A stretch of 64,000 nt of DNA from Halorhabdus tiamatea SARL4B (lineage in GTDB: Archaea; Halobacteriota; Halobacteria; Halobacteriales; Haloarculaceae), in assembly GCF_000470655.1 (NCBI RefSeq), contig NC_021921.1, positions 1,364,001 to 1,428,000 of the forward strand, given 5' to 3'. The position numbers and the translations under genes are program-made. The notes beneath the pieces were generated by a model. That model did no database searches and had not been told where the DNA came from. It saw nothing but the letters and a program-made list of their open reading frames with translations. Below, one piece after another: positions 30,489-41,928 of this stretch (positions are counted from its first letter, which is position 1; the number at the start of each line of letters is the position of its first letter).

Positions 30489-31423
30489 TATATCGACCTC
30501 GCTTTGATCAGCGTCGCTTCAGGATCGACCGCCTCGGTCAGCGTCTCGACCTCGTCGGCCAGCAGGTACCGCCCGAAGGTCGGCCCCTCGACGCGGTAGT
30601 ACCGCCCCATGATCGTCCCCTGCATCTCCTCGACGACGACGCTCGTATCCAGGGCGTCCATCGCCATGTCCTTGGCCTCCTCTAGAGCGATGCCAGTCAG
30701 TTCCTCGGTGGCTTCCTGATCGAAGATGACCTCGGTGACCTCCTCACCATCGTCGAGCACGCCCTTGATCCGGAGGTCGAACTCGCCCTCGACTTCGCCG
30801 TGTTCGGAACACCGGCCGTTCTGGAGGACGCGCGTACAGTCCTCCTCGGGACAGCGCTTGATGAGTCCGCTGCCGCTCTGGATGTCGACCAACGCGCCCT
30901 CGACCTCGAGGGCGTCGTCGCCGACCTCGATCTCCTCGTCAGTCTCCTCGATGACGGTCGTCCGGTTGAGTTTCACCGAGAACCGGCCCTGGTACTCGTC
31001 GGTGACGATATTCCGGAGATGGTAGGTCCCGCCCTCCGCGAGTTCGGGGAGATCGGATTTGGACCACTTGGTGAACTTGATCGTCCCGGTCTCGTCGCCC
31101 AGCAGGCCGACCTGGGCGACGGCGTCGCTCCGGGGCTCCCACAACTCGACGACCTTCGCCGTCATGTCGACCCACTCCTCGGGCGCGTCGACATCGGCGG
31201 CCTGGACGGTCTCGTTGCCGCCGCTCCCGCCGCCGATGTCCTCGCGATCCAGCCCCGCCTCGTCGAGGTAGGAGTTGGTGACGCTTCGACGGGCCTCACT
31301 GATCGGAACCTGGTACTCGTTGACCAGCGTGTCGAGGCGTTCCTCGACCGCCTCGACGGTCAGGTCTAGCTGGTCTGTGAACTGCTCGTGTATCTCTTCC
31401 GCGTGGGTATGCAAATCCGTCAT
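30488..31423 (-). CDS. rpa3: Replication protein A-like RPA3, single-stranded DNA-binding
   Basis: A 311-aa ssDNA-binding protein. The N-terminal helical region (MTDLHTHAEEIHEQFTDQLDLTVEAVEERLDTLVNEYQVP) precedes an OB fold (WVDMTAKVVELWEPRSDAVAQVGLLGDETGTIKFTKWS). A zinc finger CPEEDCTRVLQNGRCSEHGEVEG, typical of haloarchaeal RPA3, sits before the C-terminal domain. It protects ssDNA during replication and repair together with RPAP3. The frame is open far upstream, but the ATG at 31423 gives the family N-terminus. It is first in the rpa3-rpap3 operon. Confidence 0.93.
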   Translation of the reverse strand: MTDLHTHAEEIHEQFTDQLDLTVEAVEERLDTLVNEYQVPISEARRSVTNSYLDEAGLDREDIGGGSGGNETVQAADVDAPEEWVDMTAKVVELWEPRSDAVAQVGLLGDETGTIKFTKWSKSDLPELAEGGTYHLRNIVTDEYQGRFSVKLNRTTVIEETDEEIEVGDDALEVEGALVDIQSGSGLIKRCPEEDCTRVLQNGRCSEHGEVEGEFDLRIKGVLDDGEEVTEVIFDQEATEELTGIALEEAKDMAMDALDTSVVVEEMQGTIMGRYYRVEGPTFGRYLLADEVETLTEAVDPEATLIKARSI

Positions 31424-31588
31424 AGCTGTGCTGTCTCCGCGTGTTTTCGATGGGAGACACCCGACAGTTGGTCGCCCTCCTATATAAAGTCGCGGCGACC
31501 GTGGCGGAAGTGAAACCTCCCGCAGCGAGGCGGACAGCGTTCGGTGCACGGCGAGAAGATTCATAGGCGGGGCGTCCACAGCCCAACC

Positions 31589-31894
31589 ATGGCCGAGGAC
31601 GGGCAGCGACTCCCGCGATTCCTGCGATCGAGCCTCGCGTCGGCCGGCCGGCAACTGGCCGAGGCCAGGCGCGCCTACGAGAACGCAAAGCAGACGGCCC
31701 GGACGGATCTCCCGCTCTCCGAGGACGGTCGCGCGCGGATCGTCTGCCGGCGACACGCCGAGCGGCGGGCCGTTCAGGTGCACGAAGACGGGCGACCCGA
31801 GTGCTTCGACGCCGAGCACCCTGACTGCCAGGGGTGCGCCGAGGACGTGCGGGCGGGGACCATCGAGACGTGGGAACCGAACGACTCGCGGTGA
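31589..31894 (+). CDS. Conserved haloarchaeal protein with CRRH/CQGC motif
   Basis: A 101-aa protein of unknown function. The N-terminus is helical (LPRFLRSSLASAGRQLAEARRAYENAKQTARTDLP). The second half carries CRRHAERRAVQVHEDGRPECFDAEHPDCQGCAED, with four cysteines and two or three histidines that could bind zinc. It lies between rpa3 (divergent) and an ABC transporter. The ATG at 31589 is the natural start. Confidence 0.7.
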   Translation: MAEDGQRLPRFLRSSLASAGRQLAEARRAYENAKQTARTDLPLSEDGRARIVCRRHAERRAVQVHEDGRPECFDAEHPDCQGCAEDVRAGTIETWEPNDSR

Positions 31895-31946
31895 CCGAAC
31901 GGCTCGAAGCCCGGATGACTGCATCGCCTGCAGCCGTGGGTGGGCC

Positions 31947-31953
31947 ATTATAA
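31947..31953 (+). promoter_or_regulatory. TATA box of the ABC transporter operon
   Basis: ATTATAAGG sits about 27 nt before the ATG at 31977, fitting a leaderless transcript of the two-gene operon. Confidence 0.65.
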
Positions 31954-31976
31954 GGAGTGGCTGAATACGACGTGGT

Positions 31977-32732
31977 ATGACAGCGGACGCGAGCGCGATC
32001 ACTGCGAGGGGGCTCACCAAACGCTACGGGGCGACGATAGCAGTCGACGGACTAGACCTCGACGTGCCCGAGGGTGTCGTCTACGGTTTTCTGGGGCCCA
32101 ACGGCGCGGGAAAGACCACGACGATGCGGATATTGACGGGGTTGATCGAACCGACGAGCGGCGACGGGTTCGTCGACGGCGTCCACTGTACCGACCGGGC
32201 GAGTCTCGTCGAGCATATCGGGCTGCTTCCGGAGGAACCACCGCTGTACCGGGAGTTGACCGGGCGCGAGCAGTTGCACTTCGCCGCGGATCTGCGGGAT
32301 ATTCCCTGGAACGCGGTCGAAGAGCGGGCACTCGACGTCGCCGAGTCTCTGGGCCTCCGGGCGGACCTCGATCGGCGGATCGACAGCTACTCCAAGGGGA
32401 TGAAACAGAAGACGGCGTTCATCCAGGCCGTCGCCCACGACCCCGCCGTGGTCTTTCTCGACGAGCCGACCGCCGGTCTCGATCCGCGGGCGGCCAAGGC
32501 GCTTCGGGAGTTGATCGTCGACCTGGCAGCCAGCGAGACGACCGTGTTCCTCTCGACGCACATTCTCCCGGTCGTCGAGGAGATCGCGGATCGGGTGGGC
32601 GTCCTCTACGACGGCCGACTGGTCTCGGAAGGCTCGCCCGACGGCCTCGCCGCGGGAAGTGCTGACGGCGACGGTGACCTCGAAGACGCCTTCCTGGAGT
32701 TGACTGGCGATCCCGCGAGCGCCTGGCAATGA
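31977..32732 (+). CDS. ABC transporter ATP-binding protein
   Basis: A 251-aa nucleotide-binding subunit of the ABC-2 export type. Walker A is GPNGAGKTTT, the Q-loop region is LLPEEPPLY (Q replaced by E/P context), the signature is DSYSKGMKQK rather than LSGGQ, Walker B is VVFLDEPTAGLD, and the switch is LSTHIL. The degenerate signature is common in export-type ABC-2 ATPases. It works with the permease that follows, whose ATG overlaps this stop (ATGA). The substrate is unknown. Confidence 0.9.
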   Translation: MTADASAITARGLTKRYGATIAVDGLDLDVPEGVVYGFLGPNGAGKTTTMRILTGLIEPTSGDGFVDGVHCTDRASLVEHIGLLPEEPPLYRELTGREQLHFAADLRDIPWNAVEERALDVAESLGLRADLDRRIDSYSKGMKQKTAFIQAVAHDPAVVFLDEPTAGLDPRAAKALRELIVDLAASETTVFLSTHILPVVEEIADRVGVLYDGRLVSEGSPDGLAAGSADGDGDLEDAFLELTGDPASAWQ

Positions 32733-36976: not shown

Positions 36977-39900
36977 TCACATGAAGTCGCCGATCCCCGT
37001 CTGTTTGCTCGTATCGTCCTCGAAGACGCGCTTGATCGACCGATCCAGGATCTCCAGGCGCTGTTTGGTGTACTCCCGGGCCCCGAACTCCTCGGCCACG
37101 CGCGTGGCCGTATCGATGTACTTGTTGACCGACCCCTCGTGGACGGTCAGGTTCACGTCGCCGCCACACTCTCGGCAGGTGCCAGTGAGTGGCATCCGGC
37201 GGTACTTCTCACCACACTCCAGACACCGGACGTCCTGGCGAGAGAACGCTCGCAGGTTCCCGATCAGATCCGGCAGGAAGTGATACTCGATGATGCGCTC
37301 GGCGACGTCGGTCTCGTCGACCGCCCGAAGTTTCCGGGAGATCTCGAGCTGAGCGTCCATCTTGTCCTCCATCGATCCCAGCGTCTTGTACGCCGAGAGA
37401 TCCGGCCCGAGGGCGATGTTGCTGGTGTCGTGGGTGTGGGCGAAGCCAGTGTATTCGTCCTCAGTGCCCAGGGTGTCCTCCGCGATCTTGACGTCGACCT
37501 CTTCGGGATGGGCCATCTCGCGGGTCGCCTCGTACAGTTCCAGGGGATACTCCTCGACGATGTCGATGTTGTGGGCCTCGTCGTCGATCTCGGCCGGGTC
37601 GATCCGGGAGGACATGACTAACGGTGCGTCCATCCGACCACCGCGTTGATTTGGCAGATATTTTACACTAAAATTCAAAAGTCCATCAAGCAGAAGCATT
37701 ACACAGTCTTCATCTCCGTCACAGTTTCGGCGTTTCGCGGCGTGGAAATAGGGGTGTGCGTACCCCACCGCAGCCGAAGTAAACCCGATGACGCGGCCGA
37801 CGGTCGCCGCGCTGGTGTGGGGTGCCATCCCGAAGACGAGTTCGCCGACGAGGTCGTCGCGATCCTCGAGTTCGTAGTAGGGCTCGAGACCGTAGTACGA
37901 CTCGAGGAGGTCGTCGATGAAGTCCGCGGTCTTGAGCATGTGTTCGGCCGCGCCATCCGAGAGGACGACGTCCTGGACGTTGAGTTCGACCAGTTGATCG
38001 TCGTGGACGAGCGGATCGCCGCGGATGTCTTGCTCGTAGCCTAACTCGCGGAACTGCTCGACGGTGACGTCGAGTTCGGCCGGCCGGACCGAGGTGACCG
38101 GGAGGTCGGTCATGTCGTAGCGGACCGTCCCGTCCTTGAACGCGCTGATGTCGTGTTTGGCCCGGAGGACGCCCTTCTCCATCGGTTCGGGGGTCTTCTC
38201 CTCCGACGTGAGCCCCTTGACGCCCTTGAGCACGTCGAAGGCGACCTCGCGCTCGCCGACTGACTCCATCGCCTGCTGGTAGACCTCGCCGACGTCTATC
38301 GTCGTCGTCCGGGTCGGTGAAGCCAGCGTCTCACACCGCGGGCACTCGGCGCGGCCGGACTCGTCGGGTTCGACCTCGCGGTCGCAGTCCGGGCAGACGT
38401 AGACCGTCTCGGTGGTCCCGCCACAGTCGGGACATCGCGCCTGGTAGGTTTCGGTGGCGCAGTCGGTACACCGCCGGCGGCCCACTTCTAGATCGACCTC
38501 ACCGGGTGCGTCACCCATTTCGTCGGCGTGACCCGCCGCCTTCGCGACGTCGCGCTGGTTGCCGCCCGCTTCGCCGATCGGGAACAGCGTGTGGACGGCC
38601 GGCGAGAGTTCCCGTTCCTCGGACTTTTCGGGGCGGCCCATCCGGTTGCCGATCCGGGTCGGAGCTCGCTCGCGGACGTCGAAGGGAGCGATCTCGTTGA
38701 CGGCCTCGATGGCGTTGTCGCCATCGTCGTAGCCCCGGGCGCGTTCCGAGAGGTCCTCGATCGTCCACGTCCGCGAGAGGCCGTCCGCAAAGCCCAGCGT
38801 CTCGACGAGCGGTCGCCAGGTCGGGACGATGAGCGAGGCGTCTGTCTGGGTGTGTTCGACCAGCAGCGATTCGAGGGTCCGCGTGGCGGTCTCACTCCGC
38901 GGGAGGACGAGGTCGCCGGTCGTGGCGGTCTCGGTTGCCTCCTTCCCGGCCGGTGGCTCGGCCGCCGCACCGTCGCCGGTGACGATTTCGCCCTCGGCGA
39001 TTGCGTCGGCCAGCGCGTCGATCGCCTCGACGCTCACGTCGTGATAGACGTAGGTGTATTTCGGGTGCAACGGGGCATCGTACTCTCTGGCCCACTCGAG
39101 GGCTTGCGCCGGCGTCGGATCGTCGAGGTCGATCTCGACGGAGTCTTCCATCGCCTGGACGTCCGCGCCGGCGGCCTCGAACTCCTGAATCCACCACTCG
39201 AGGGTGTAGGAGGCCGGCGCGAGCGGGTGGTTGTTCTCGACGAACTCGCCGTAGTTGACGAGATACTCGCCCAGATCGAGGACTTTCTCGACGCCGTTGC
39301 GGACTTCCTTGGCCTCCTCGGGGTCGTCGATCCGTCGAACGTCGCCGTTCGCGAGGCGAACCGTCGGTCCCTCGATAGTGTCGACGGGGACGACGCCCGC
39401 GGCCTTCCCCGGGCGCTCGGTCTTGATCTGGGTCCCGGTCGCGAGAAAGTCGTCGACGAGGTGCATCGTCGCCGGATGGACGCCTGCGGTCGCATTCCCG
39501 TGATTCCGTGCGCGGCCGTAGCGCAGTCGAAACCCACCCGATTCGCTCGGGTGCGAGAAGACCGGACGGCCCGCGATGAGGTCCCGAAGGTACTTCTTGG
39601 ATGGGTCGGCTCGGGGTGGCCCCTCGGTTTCGTCTGGAGCGTCCTCGACGTCGTCGGGTTCGTCTGCGTCACTCGCGTCGGCCTCCTCGGGTTCGTCGTC
39701 TGTGTCTTCGCCGATCGTCCCGTCGATGAGAGCCTGGAGCCAGGGCCACTCGACGTCGTCGAGTTGGCGGGTGTAGCGTTGAATCTTGGGCGCTTTCAGG
39801 GCGATCCCTTCGGCCATGACCAGACACATCCCGCCCCGAGCGCTGTTGGAGTCGACGCGTTCGAGGTCCCGGTAGCCCGAAACCTCCTCGTCGCCGGTGG

Positions 39901-40549
39901 CCTCACCGTCGAGCATGATCGGCATGTTCTCGGCGATGTGGCGGGTCTCCTTGTCCTTGGGCGAGTACTGGAGGCCGGTGTCCTCGTCGTAGAGTTCGAT
40001 CTCCTCGACGTAGCGGCCGATCTCCTCTTCCCGGGCGTGATACTCGTCGATGTCGAGCAGCGTCCGGGCGTAGTCGGCGACGAGTACGGAGAGTGCTTGA
40101 GCGGTGCCGCCGGCCGACCGGATCGGGCCGGCGTAGTAGACGTTGACGAACTGGGTGCCGTCGTCGTTGTCGAGGATCTCGACGCGGTCGATCCCCTCGA
40201 TCGGCGCGGCGACGACCCCCTCCGTGAGGAGGGCGACGGCCGTCCGGACCGCGCCCTCGATCTTGCCCGCCTTCGTGTCGTAGTCGCCGACCGAACCCTC
40301 GACGAAGTCCTCGACGAGGGCGAGGGCGGCCTCCTCGCGGGACATTTCGCCCTCGAGATCACGGACGCGCTCGGCGACCCCGTCGATGCCGAGGATGTTC
40401 TCGACGCGGTCGGCCATGTCCTTGGCGACCGGGATCTCGACGTCGGTCGTCGGATCGCCGCCCCGCTCGCGCGCCTCGCGAGCGACGTCCATCGCCCGGT
40501 CGAGTTCGTCTTCCAGCCGCGCGAAGTAGCGTTCGTCTTCCTCGCGCAT
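36977..40549 (-). CDS. polC: DNA polymerase D large subunit (DP2)
   Basis: DP2 of 1190 aa, the catalytic subunit of PolD, the replicative polymerase of Euryarchaeota. The N-terminal part has YYAGPIRSAGGTAQALSVL and ENMPIMLDGEATGDEEVSGYRDL. Zinc modules are CTDCATETYQARCPDCGG..CPDC..CPRC and, near the end, CLECGEKYRR..CREC. The active-site barrel contains the invariant NCDGDEDC (Cys about 943, catalytic Asp about 944 and 946). The last residues (KQTGIGDFM) may be a degenerate PCNA-binding motif. No intein is present, but the codons around the catalytic motif are anomalously AT-rich. Its start abuts the stop of the DUF296 gene. Confidence 0.95.
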   Translation of the reverse strand: MREEDERYFARLEDELDRAMDVAREARERGGDPTTDVEIPVAKDMADRVENILGIDGVAERVRDLEGEMSREEAALALVEDFVEGSVGDYDTKAGKIEGAVRTAVALLTEGVVAAPIEGIDRVEILDNDDGTQFVNVYYAGPIRSAGGTAQALSVLVADYARTLLDIDEYHAREEEIGRYVEEIELYDEDTGLQYSPKDKETRHIAENMPIMLDGEATGDEEVSGYRDLERVDSNSARGGMCLVMAEGIALKAPKIQRYTRQLDDVEWPWLQALIDGTIGEDTDDEPEEADASDADEPDDVEDAPDETEGPPRADPSKKYLRDLIAGRPVFSHPSESGGFRLRYGRARNHGNATAGVHPATMHLVDDFLATGTQIKTERPGKAAGVVPVDTIEGPTVRLANGDVRRIDDPEEAKEVRNGVEKVLDLGEYLVNYGEFVENNHPLAPASYTLEWWIQEFEAAGADVQAMEDSVEIDLDDPTPAQALEWAREYDAPLHPKYTYVYHDVSVEAIDALADAIAEGEIVTGDGAAAEPPAGKEATETATTGDLVLPRSETATRTLESLLVEHTQTDASLIVPTWRPLVETLGFADGLSRTWTIEDLSERARGYDDGDNAIEAVNEIAPFDVRERAPTRIGNRMGRPEKSEERELSPAVHTLFPIGEAGGNQRDVAKAAGHADEMGDAPGEVDLEVGRRRCTDCATETYQARCPDCGGTTETVYVCPDCDREVEPDESGRAECPRCETLASPTRTTTIDVGEVYQQAMESVGEREVAFDVLKGVKGLTSEEKTPEPMEKGVLRAKHDISAFKDGTVRYDMTDLPVTSVRPAELDVTVEQFRELGYEQDIRGDPLVHDDQLVELNVQDVVLSDGAAEHMLKTADFIDDLLESYYGLEPYYELEDRDDLVGELVFGMAPHTSAATVGRVIGFTSAAVGYAHPYFHAAKRRNCDGDEDCVMLLLDGLLNFSVKYLPNQRGGRMDAPLVMSSRIDPAEIDDEAHNIDIVEEYPLELYEATREMAHPEEVDVKIAEDTLGTEDEYTGFAHTHDTSNIALGPDLSAYKTLGSMEDKMDAQLEISRKLRAVDETDVAERIIEYHFLPDLIGNLRAFSRQDVRCLECGEKYRRMPLTGTCRECGGDVNLTVHEGSVNKYIDTATRVAEEFGAREYTKQRLEILDRSIKRVFEDDTSKQTGIGDFM
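37615..37735. other. AT-rich codon patch at the DP2 catalytic motif
   Basis: In 37651-37710, 40 of 60 bases are A or T, in a gene otherwise about two thirds G+C. The codons used (TTA, AAT, TTT, AGT, GTA, AAA, TAT) are rare elsewhere in the window, yet the protein (DEDCVMLLLDGLLNFSVKYLP) is fully conserved in type. The patch starts at the NCDGDED motif, where DP2 inteins are known to insert. Confidence 0.75.
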
Positions 40550-41061: not shown

Positions 41062-41928
41062 TCAGTCCCGCCAGGTATCGGGGACCTGGATCTGGTAGCG
41101 GCCGTCCTCCTGGAGCGCGATGATGTACTCCTCGCGCTCGTAGAGCTCCATGAGGTTGAGTTCGTACTGGCCGGGTTCGACGATCCGAATCGACTCGAAC
41201 TGGTCGTTGAGTTCCTCGCGAAGTTCGGAGAGATCAGGACGGTCCTCGGTCGCCGTCGGGTGCTCAGCCCGGGGCTCGTCACTGCCGTTCCCGGCGTTTC
41301 CTCCACTCGAACCGACGGCCACGTTCGAGGTGCGTGCCGAGTCCGGGAGTTCGTCGGGCGAGACGACGGCCGAACGGGCCGATGCCTGGGCTTCGTCCTC
41401 GAACCCGGCCGTTCGAACGGTGTCGCCGGGATTTGAGTCTGTCCGGGTTTCGGCACTGACACCGTCGCTCTCCGTGCCGCCGACGAATGATCCCCCTGTT
41501 TCGGGTCCCGGACCGCCAACGACTGATTCCTCTGTTTCGGGTCCCGGACCGCCAACGGCTGATTCCCCTGTTTCGGGTCGATCGGGAGGAGAGGTGGACG
41601 CGATGTTCCCATCGGTAGTCGCGTCCTCCTCGGCTTCGCTCGGCCACGACGAGAGGGGATCCGCCTCGTCGGGATCGACGCCCGGCGTGGGTTCGTCGCT
41701 CCCAATGAAGTTCTTGACCGTCTGGGCGGCGTTGCCGACGGTCCGAGCGACGGAATCGTCCGGTTCGGGTCGATCCGGCGGCTCCGCGTCGGGCGCTGAC
41801 TCGGCGGACGCGGTGGCGTCGCCCGGGTGGTACTGGAAGGTATTGCCGCCACACTCCGGACACCCCGAGAGCATCTCGGTGGACCCGTCTTCGAAGACCG
41901 TGCCACACTCCGTACACTGGTGGGGCAT
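41062..41928 (-). CDS. oapC: Origin-associated zinc-ribbon protein OapC
   Basis: A 288-aa protein with an N-terminal zinc ribbon (CTECGTVFEDGSTEMLSGCPECGG), a long acidic, low-complexity linker (about 35-220) and a conserved C-terminal domain (DLSELREELNDQFESIRIVEPGQYELNLMELYEREEYIIALQEDGRYQIQVPDTW). This matches the OapC/ArvC family encoded next to haloarchaeal oriC1. The linker contains 12-residue repeats (PETGESAVGGPG type, three copies) encoded by 36-nt DNA repeats. The ATG overlaps the oapB stop by one base (TAATG). Confidence 0.88.
   Translation of the reverse strand: MPHQCTECGTVFEDGSTEMLSGCPECGGNTFQYHPGDATASAESAPDAEPPDRPEPDDSVARTVGNAAQTVKNFIGSDEPTPGVDPDEADPLSSWPSEAEEDATTDGNIASTSPPDRPETGESAVGGPGPETEESVVGGPGPETGGSFVGGTESDGVSAETRTDSNPGDTVRTAGFEDEAQASARSAVVSPDELPDSARTSNVAVGSSGGNAGNGSDEPRAEHPTATEDRPDLSELREELNDQFESIRIVEPGQYELNLMELYEREEYIIALQEDGRYQIQVPDTWRD

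Follow-up and report, generated by a model that had tools for sequence, protein, structure and literature searches.

The gene for the large subunit of DNA polymerase D in Halorhabdus tiamatea SARL4B, located in the 64,000-nucleotide stretch of its genome analysed here (the window), contains an AT-rich patch that begins at an empty pol-IIa intein insertion site. We assign a probability of roughly 0.6 to the following reading: the pol-IIa intein, through repeated endonuclease-triggered gene conversion, has turned the site into a hotspot of recombination and diversification, and the patch is one of the alleles there that lack the intein. The observations behind this reading are a dip in GC at third codon positions (GC3) at the insertion site, raised synonymous diversity, the exchange of short tracts, a link between intein identity and flank identity, a split of the Halorhabdus alleles that peaks near the site, and the recurrence of the pattern in MCM and PolB.

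An AT-rich tract adjoins an empty intein site

The polC/DP2 gene (DNA polymerase D, or polymerase II, large subunit) occupies positions 36977–40549 on the minus strand and is complete, consisting of one continuous frame of 1190 amino acids with matches to the Pfam PolC_DP2 N-terminal, central and catalytic families (PolC_DP2_N/central/cat) and to NCBIfam TIGR00354, and with no intein. Inteins occupy the DP2 site in about 60 of the family members compared, and of 60 relatives with the intein, 59 have it exactly between RRN and CDGDED, where it begins with C and ends with Q or N. The insertion point named in the initial annotation, N/C at the catalytic motif (a slash marks the insertion point throughout), is thus confirmed on these carriers, and the corresponding empty junction in the window is at 37721–37726 on the minus strand (AAC at 37724–37726, followed by TGT at 37721–37723).

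The AT-rich tract starts with the C codon of the junction (37721–37723) and ends near 37634, covering codons +1 to +30 (37634–37723, minus strand) at a GC content of 0.42. GC3 is 0.71 over codons −17 to −1, 0.26 over +1 to +19 and 0.27 over +20 to +30, compared with about 0.86 for the gene. The patch that the initial annotation had described from the catalytic motif onward is therefore real, and its count of 40 A/T among the 60 nucleotides of 37651–37710 was reproduced exactly; its statement that the protein is fully conserved there needs correction at codon +20, which encodes V or I in the AT-rich alleles of Halorhabdus but R in those that bear the intein. For a genomic null we sampled 400 kb of other stretches of the same genome together with the window, choosing genes by a simple open-frame and GC3 rule (313 genes, 464 kb). 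The lowest 25-codon GC3 value in the DP2 tract, 0.24, was the minimum of all 89,091 windows in this sample, and the runner-up gene reached 0.32, making chance an unlikely source of the tract. Two other frames of the window, 30491–32017 and 41065–41928, each contain a 25-codon stretch with a GC3 of 0.36.

Two classes of allele occur within Halorhabdus

Outside the tract, the nearest DP2 relative of the window is an intein-bearing Halorhabdus (G072), with which it shares 80% of synonymous codons; over codons +1 to +19 (37667–37723, minus strand) the two share only 4 of 17 (p about 7e-7). By comparison, two intein-free species, G073 and H. amylolytica (G068), are identical at all 18 synonymous codons of +1 to +19 and at only 67% elsewhere, and the window matches both of them at 15 of 18. 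The window, G073 and H. amylolytica, three intein-free species, thus form an AT-rich tract class that conflicts with the gene tree, while the GC-rich class comprises the three carriers (G069, G071 and G072) and the intein-free H. salina (G070). When support for this 3-against-4 split was scanned along DP2, it peaked at 0.61 at codons +11/+12, compared with a best value of 0.16 more than 30 codons away and with at most 0.28 for any other 3–4 split elsewhere in the gene. The window tract therefore both adjoins the insertion site and disagrees with the phylogeny of the gene that contains it, as a co-conversion tract would.

The same +1 to +19 haplotype is found outside the genus in an intein-free genome of another family (G176), which ranks as the best match to the AT-rich haplotype outside Halorhabdus in a search of 391 genomes of the class. 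From the C codon onward it is identical to G073 and H. amylolytica at 16 of 18 codons, compared with 6 of 19 upstream, although this pair taken alone is only nominally significant (p about 0.013–0.018). Other sources of the tract were sought and rejected: phage collections yielded no match, plasmids gave only short chance matches in Agrobacterium/Allorhizobium, and the AT-rich tracts of low-GC haloarchaea or Marine Group IV-like genomes reflect AT-richness of the whole gene and match the window no better than do intein-free haloarchaea.

The initial annotation had favored a footprint of loss, in which a former pol-IIa intein of this lineage brought in the AT-rich flank by co-conversion and was later lost precisely. 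The exact start of the tract at the junction and the intein in the nearest relative outside the tract agree with such a history, and in the angiosperm cox1 gene a co-conversion tract without its intron has been read in this way (PMC3192709). We nevertheless consider it unlikely, as the best matches to the window tract (G073, H. amylolytica and G176) are all intein-free, no carrier of the window haplotype was found among the 60 carriers compared or the best class-wide matches examined, and hence no intein-bearing donor with an equal tract emerged from that set. A comparison with the exteins of intein-bearing relatives had been suggested as a check by the initial annotation; the three Halorhabdus carriers have a different, GC-rich tract. 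For the window, the evidence favors an exchange between alleles without the intein over a history in which the element was gained and lost. A better candidate for a footprint of intein loss, judged by its sequence, is H. salina (L033), which is intein-free and has an intein-type tract.

Inteins move within the genus and probably carry their flanks

The pol-IIa intein is present in three of the seven Halorhabdus genomes (182, 488 and 488 amino acids in G069, G071 and G072, respectively), and that of G072 has splicing domains as well as a LAGLIDADG domain. The two 488-residue inteins (L113 and L114, of G071 and G072), with a GC3 of 0.52–0.54, agree at 94% of protein residues and at 92% of synonymous codons, whereas their exteins agree at only 63% of synonymous codons, indicating a recent horizontal move of the intein within Halorhabdus and hence a DP2 site that is exposed to homing in this genus.

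Among carriers, the similarity of the inteins predicted the identity of the tract once similarity in the remainder of the gene was accounted for (partial Mantel test, p = 0.004 downstream and 0.010 upstream), and showed no link to a control segment (p = 0.44). This correlation is a direct sign of co-conversion; it concerns the carriers and not the window allele.

The DP2 junction is a hotspot across the order

Among 104 haloarchaeal DP2 genes that are GC-rich and lack the intein, no part of the gene has a deeper GC3 dip than the junction; the dip is centered at codon −5 with a value of 0.654 (gene, 0.879; next deepest dip, 0.807) and extends from about −33 to +32 codons around N/C, which corresponds to 37628–37825 on the minus strand of the window. 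Synonymous identity is lowest at the junction as well (0.42–0.51 vs 0.64), precisely where conservation of the protein is highest (amino-acid conservation of 0.85–0.97 at a synonymous identity of 0.44–0.51), so that synonymous diversity climbs toward the site without any relaxation of constraint on the protein. An old local codon constraint at the catalytic motif, such as translation pausing or an RNA or DNA element, would fit the order-wide extent of the dip and the few positions with common A/T-ending codons (CAT at −10, TTT at −7). It would, however, be expected to preserve codons, and here they differ widely; plain codon constraint is rejected, since it would call for the highest synonymous identity at the site, which instead has the lowest. 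Some intein-free genes also have a GC3 near 1.0 in this zone, and a comparable dip is absent from other conserved motifs, leaving this explanation with hardly any credibility. The initial annotation had named a shared, old AT-rich constraint as the finding that would overturn its view; the order-wide dip is of the kind it described, and the variable codons and raised diversity are unlike an old constraint.

Within distant pairs of genes, pairwise synonymous identity is overdispersed, maximally at codons +16 to +22. In a scan that took, for each distant pair, the best segment of unexpected codon sharing (score of at least 18, with shuffling within alignment columns as the control), 143 shared segments were found, 89 of them near the site, which makes up 6% of the gene, and 54 elsewhere; after shuffling, 1–5 segments remained near the site and about 15–20 elsewhere. 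Several shared segments have an endpoint at the junction, and in most swaps at least one partner is intein-free. These patterns indicate that short tracts have been exchanged at the junction among intein-free genomes and with carriers. With its start at the junction, its conflict with the rest of the gene, and this trade of short tracts between distant lineages, the window tract is, on the alignments, tied to homing, which bears out the connection to the homing site that had been drawn from the window alone.

Breaks repaired repeatedly with errors could instead have raised the local mutation rate with a bias to A/T. This idea has been put forward for mobile introns (PMC5378118) and agrees with synonymous diversity being raised and GC3 lowered on both sides of the junction. 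We think it very unlikely as the explanation of the window tract: the strand pattern expected if cytosines were deaminated in resected ends, with an excess of T upstream and of A downstream, runs the opposite way in DP2 and is missing from MCM and PolB, none of the three showing a cytosine-deamination signature around the break, and the sharing of tracts requires transfer, not mutation alone.

The drop in GC3 after the junction differs with the state of the site, amounting to 0.218 in intein-free alleles, 0.110 in those with an endonuclease-bearing intein and 0.078 in those with a mini-intein. The excess of A/T in intein-free alleles over carriers is significant overall (p = 0.0018) but marginal and weak within genera (p = 0.049). 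This ranking, together with the haplotype held in common by intein-free lineages of two families, would suit the other possibility raised in the initial annotation, a recoded immune allele, in which selection favored synonymous changes that keep the endonuclease from cutting the site, or from converting it for want of identity in the flanks. Homing endonuclease targets usually span 14–40 bp. A LAGLIDADG target is far smaller than the zone, which measures about 200 bp, and resistance by itself does not account for a zone of that size. MCM endonucleases, moreover, still cut targets with several synonymous changes, according to PMC10643990. As the whole account of the window tract, recoding for immunity thus seems improbable to us.

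Intein sites in other genes

Similar dips were found at insertion points of other genes, which were measured for MCM and PolB on intein-bearing copies. MCM, examined in 30 intein-free genes, dips most deeply at the P-loop site GDPGTGK/S (GC3 of 0.663, synonymous identity of 0.40–0.41), with a second in the Q/RISVSK region (0.731), and the deepest dips of intein-free PolB are at YGDT/DS (0.720) and N/SLYG (0.776). By comparison, the internal minima of EF-2 and DnaK, which have no known haloarchaeal inteins, and of AtpA and RpoA1, whose sites are rarely used, were 0.80–0.84, excluding 5′ ends and the poorly conserved tail of DnaK. The effect is not universal: the K/S site of PolB shows no GC3 dip, and the rarely occupied sites AtpA K/T and RIR1 (0.833) show little or none. 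A scaling of dip depth with site occupancy is suggested only. We would give even odds to the broader proposition that inteins leave a readable scar across the order at each frequently used homing site, consisting of lowered GC3, raised divergence and a hotspot of exchange, and strongest in genes that lack the intein.

Several insertions at or near intein positions were noted during these comparisons. The window's own genome, with its empty DP2 site, hosts a 417-residue insertion, presumably an intein, in PolB at VIMN/SLYG (L348, G000:C2:526000-531000). In MCM, insertions at intein positions number three in G072 (L358; 528, 524 and 186 amino acids) and two in G073 (L357; 528 and 186 amino acids). 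The P-loop GPFGSGK/T of AtpA, the catalytic subunit of the A-type ATP synthase, has insertions of 495–522 amino acids in G001, G050 and G085 (L362, L363 and L364); the passages on host genes consulted in the 2014 halobacterial survey (Soucy et al. 2014) do not mention AtpA. RpoA1 (RNA polymerase A′) in G136, G137, G103, G113 and G106 is split within long single frames at about position 446–450 of the model, consistent with the rare rpolA intein.

A model of repeated cutting and exchange

Under the reading that we prefer, the LAGLIDADG homing endonuclease of the intein would arrive by mating or DNA uptake and repeatedly cut the empty DP2 gene at N/C, and each break would be repaired by gene conversion from any available DP2 copy, intein-bearing or not, replacing a stretch that measures from tens of bp up to about 100 bp on one flank or both, with one end frequently close to the junction. 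Repetition of this process across the order would shuffle in foreign short tracts and move them between genera, so that codon preference would never be restored. The step of cutting and repair we infer from the known biology of homing endonucleases.

Co-conversion alone does not reduce GC3 when donor and recipient are both GC-rich, and an extra cause of the AT-ending codons is needed. Alleles that persist without the intein would be enriched for tracts unlike current endonuclease targets, which in GC-rich genomes would mean AT-ending codons, and resistance would then presumably be why intein-free alleles are the most diverged. Candidate causes of the shift toward A/T are selection for diverged targets in alleles without the intein, relaxed codon selection in a tract that is overwritten again and again, or donors that are AT-rich or unsampled.

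Discussion

Raised diversity at the boundaries of mobile introns is already known in mitochondria, as are co-conversion tracts that record the loss of an intron. Exon diversity is raised near mobile mitochondrial introns (Repar and Warnecke 2017, PMC5378118; Metschnikowia, PMC8601654), and DP2 resembles those systems in that diversity climbs toward the site of an endonuclease-bearing element, with co-conversion and error-prone repair as candidate causes. It differs from them in that the elements are inteins, the hosts are archaeal chromosomal genes, the comparison is between species, and the GC3 signature is strongest without the element; PMC5378118 does not mention inteins. The angiosperm cox1 group I intron (PMC3192709) is like DP2 in having a short 3′ tract of synonymous differences that runs from the insertion site, whereas in DP2 the tracts are traded largely among intein-free alleles and no matching carrier was found among those compared.

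The halobacterial pol-IIa intein described by Soucy et al. 2014 (PMC4071816) is the same element at the same site as here. That study and work on homing of the Haloferax mcm intein (PMC10643990) describe cyclic gain and loss, with co-conversion of an adjacent residue inferred at MCM-d; within the open-licence literature, the passages of the two papers that were searched contain no order-wide analysis of how empty sites differ in codon usage or at synonymous positions. The codon signature of inteins thus appears undescribed in those passages, and an earlier report may exist elsewhere.

If correct, these results would mean that homing-associated diversity, known from mitochondrial introns, also accompanies the inteins of archaeal replication genes, and that a selfish element shapes the synonymous codons of essential genes even in hosts that do not carry it. 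Sequence and codon usage alone would then reveal past or present homing pressure as well as gene flow from one haloarchaeal genus to another, and alleles without the intein would together make up a reservoir of diverged target tracts that lineages share by horizontal transfer. Within Halorhabdus, the AT-rich and GC-rich tracts would provide paired natural alleles for asking whether synonymous divergence blocks homing.
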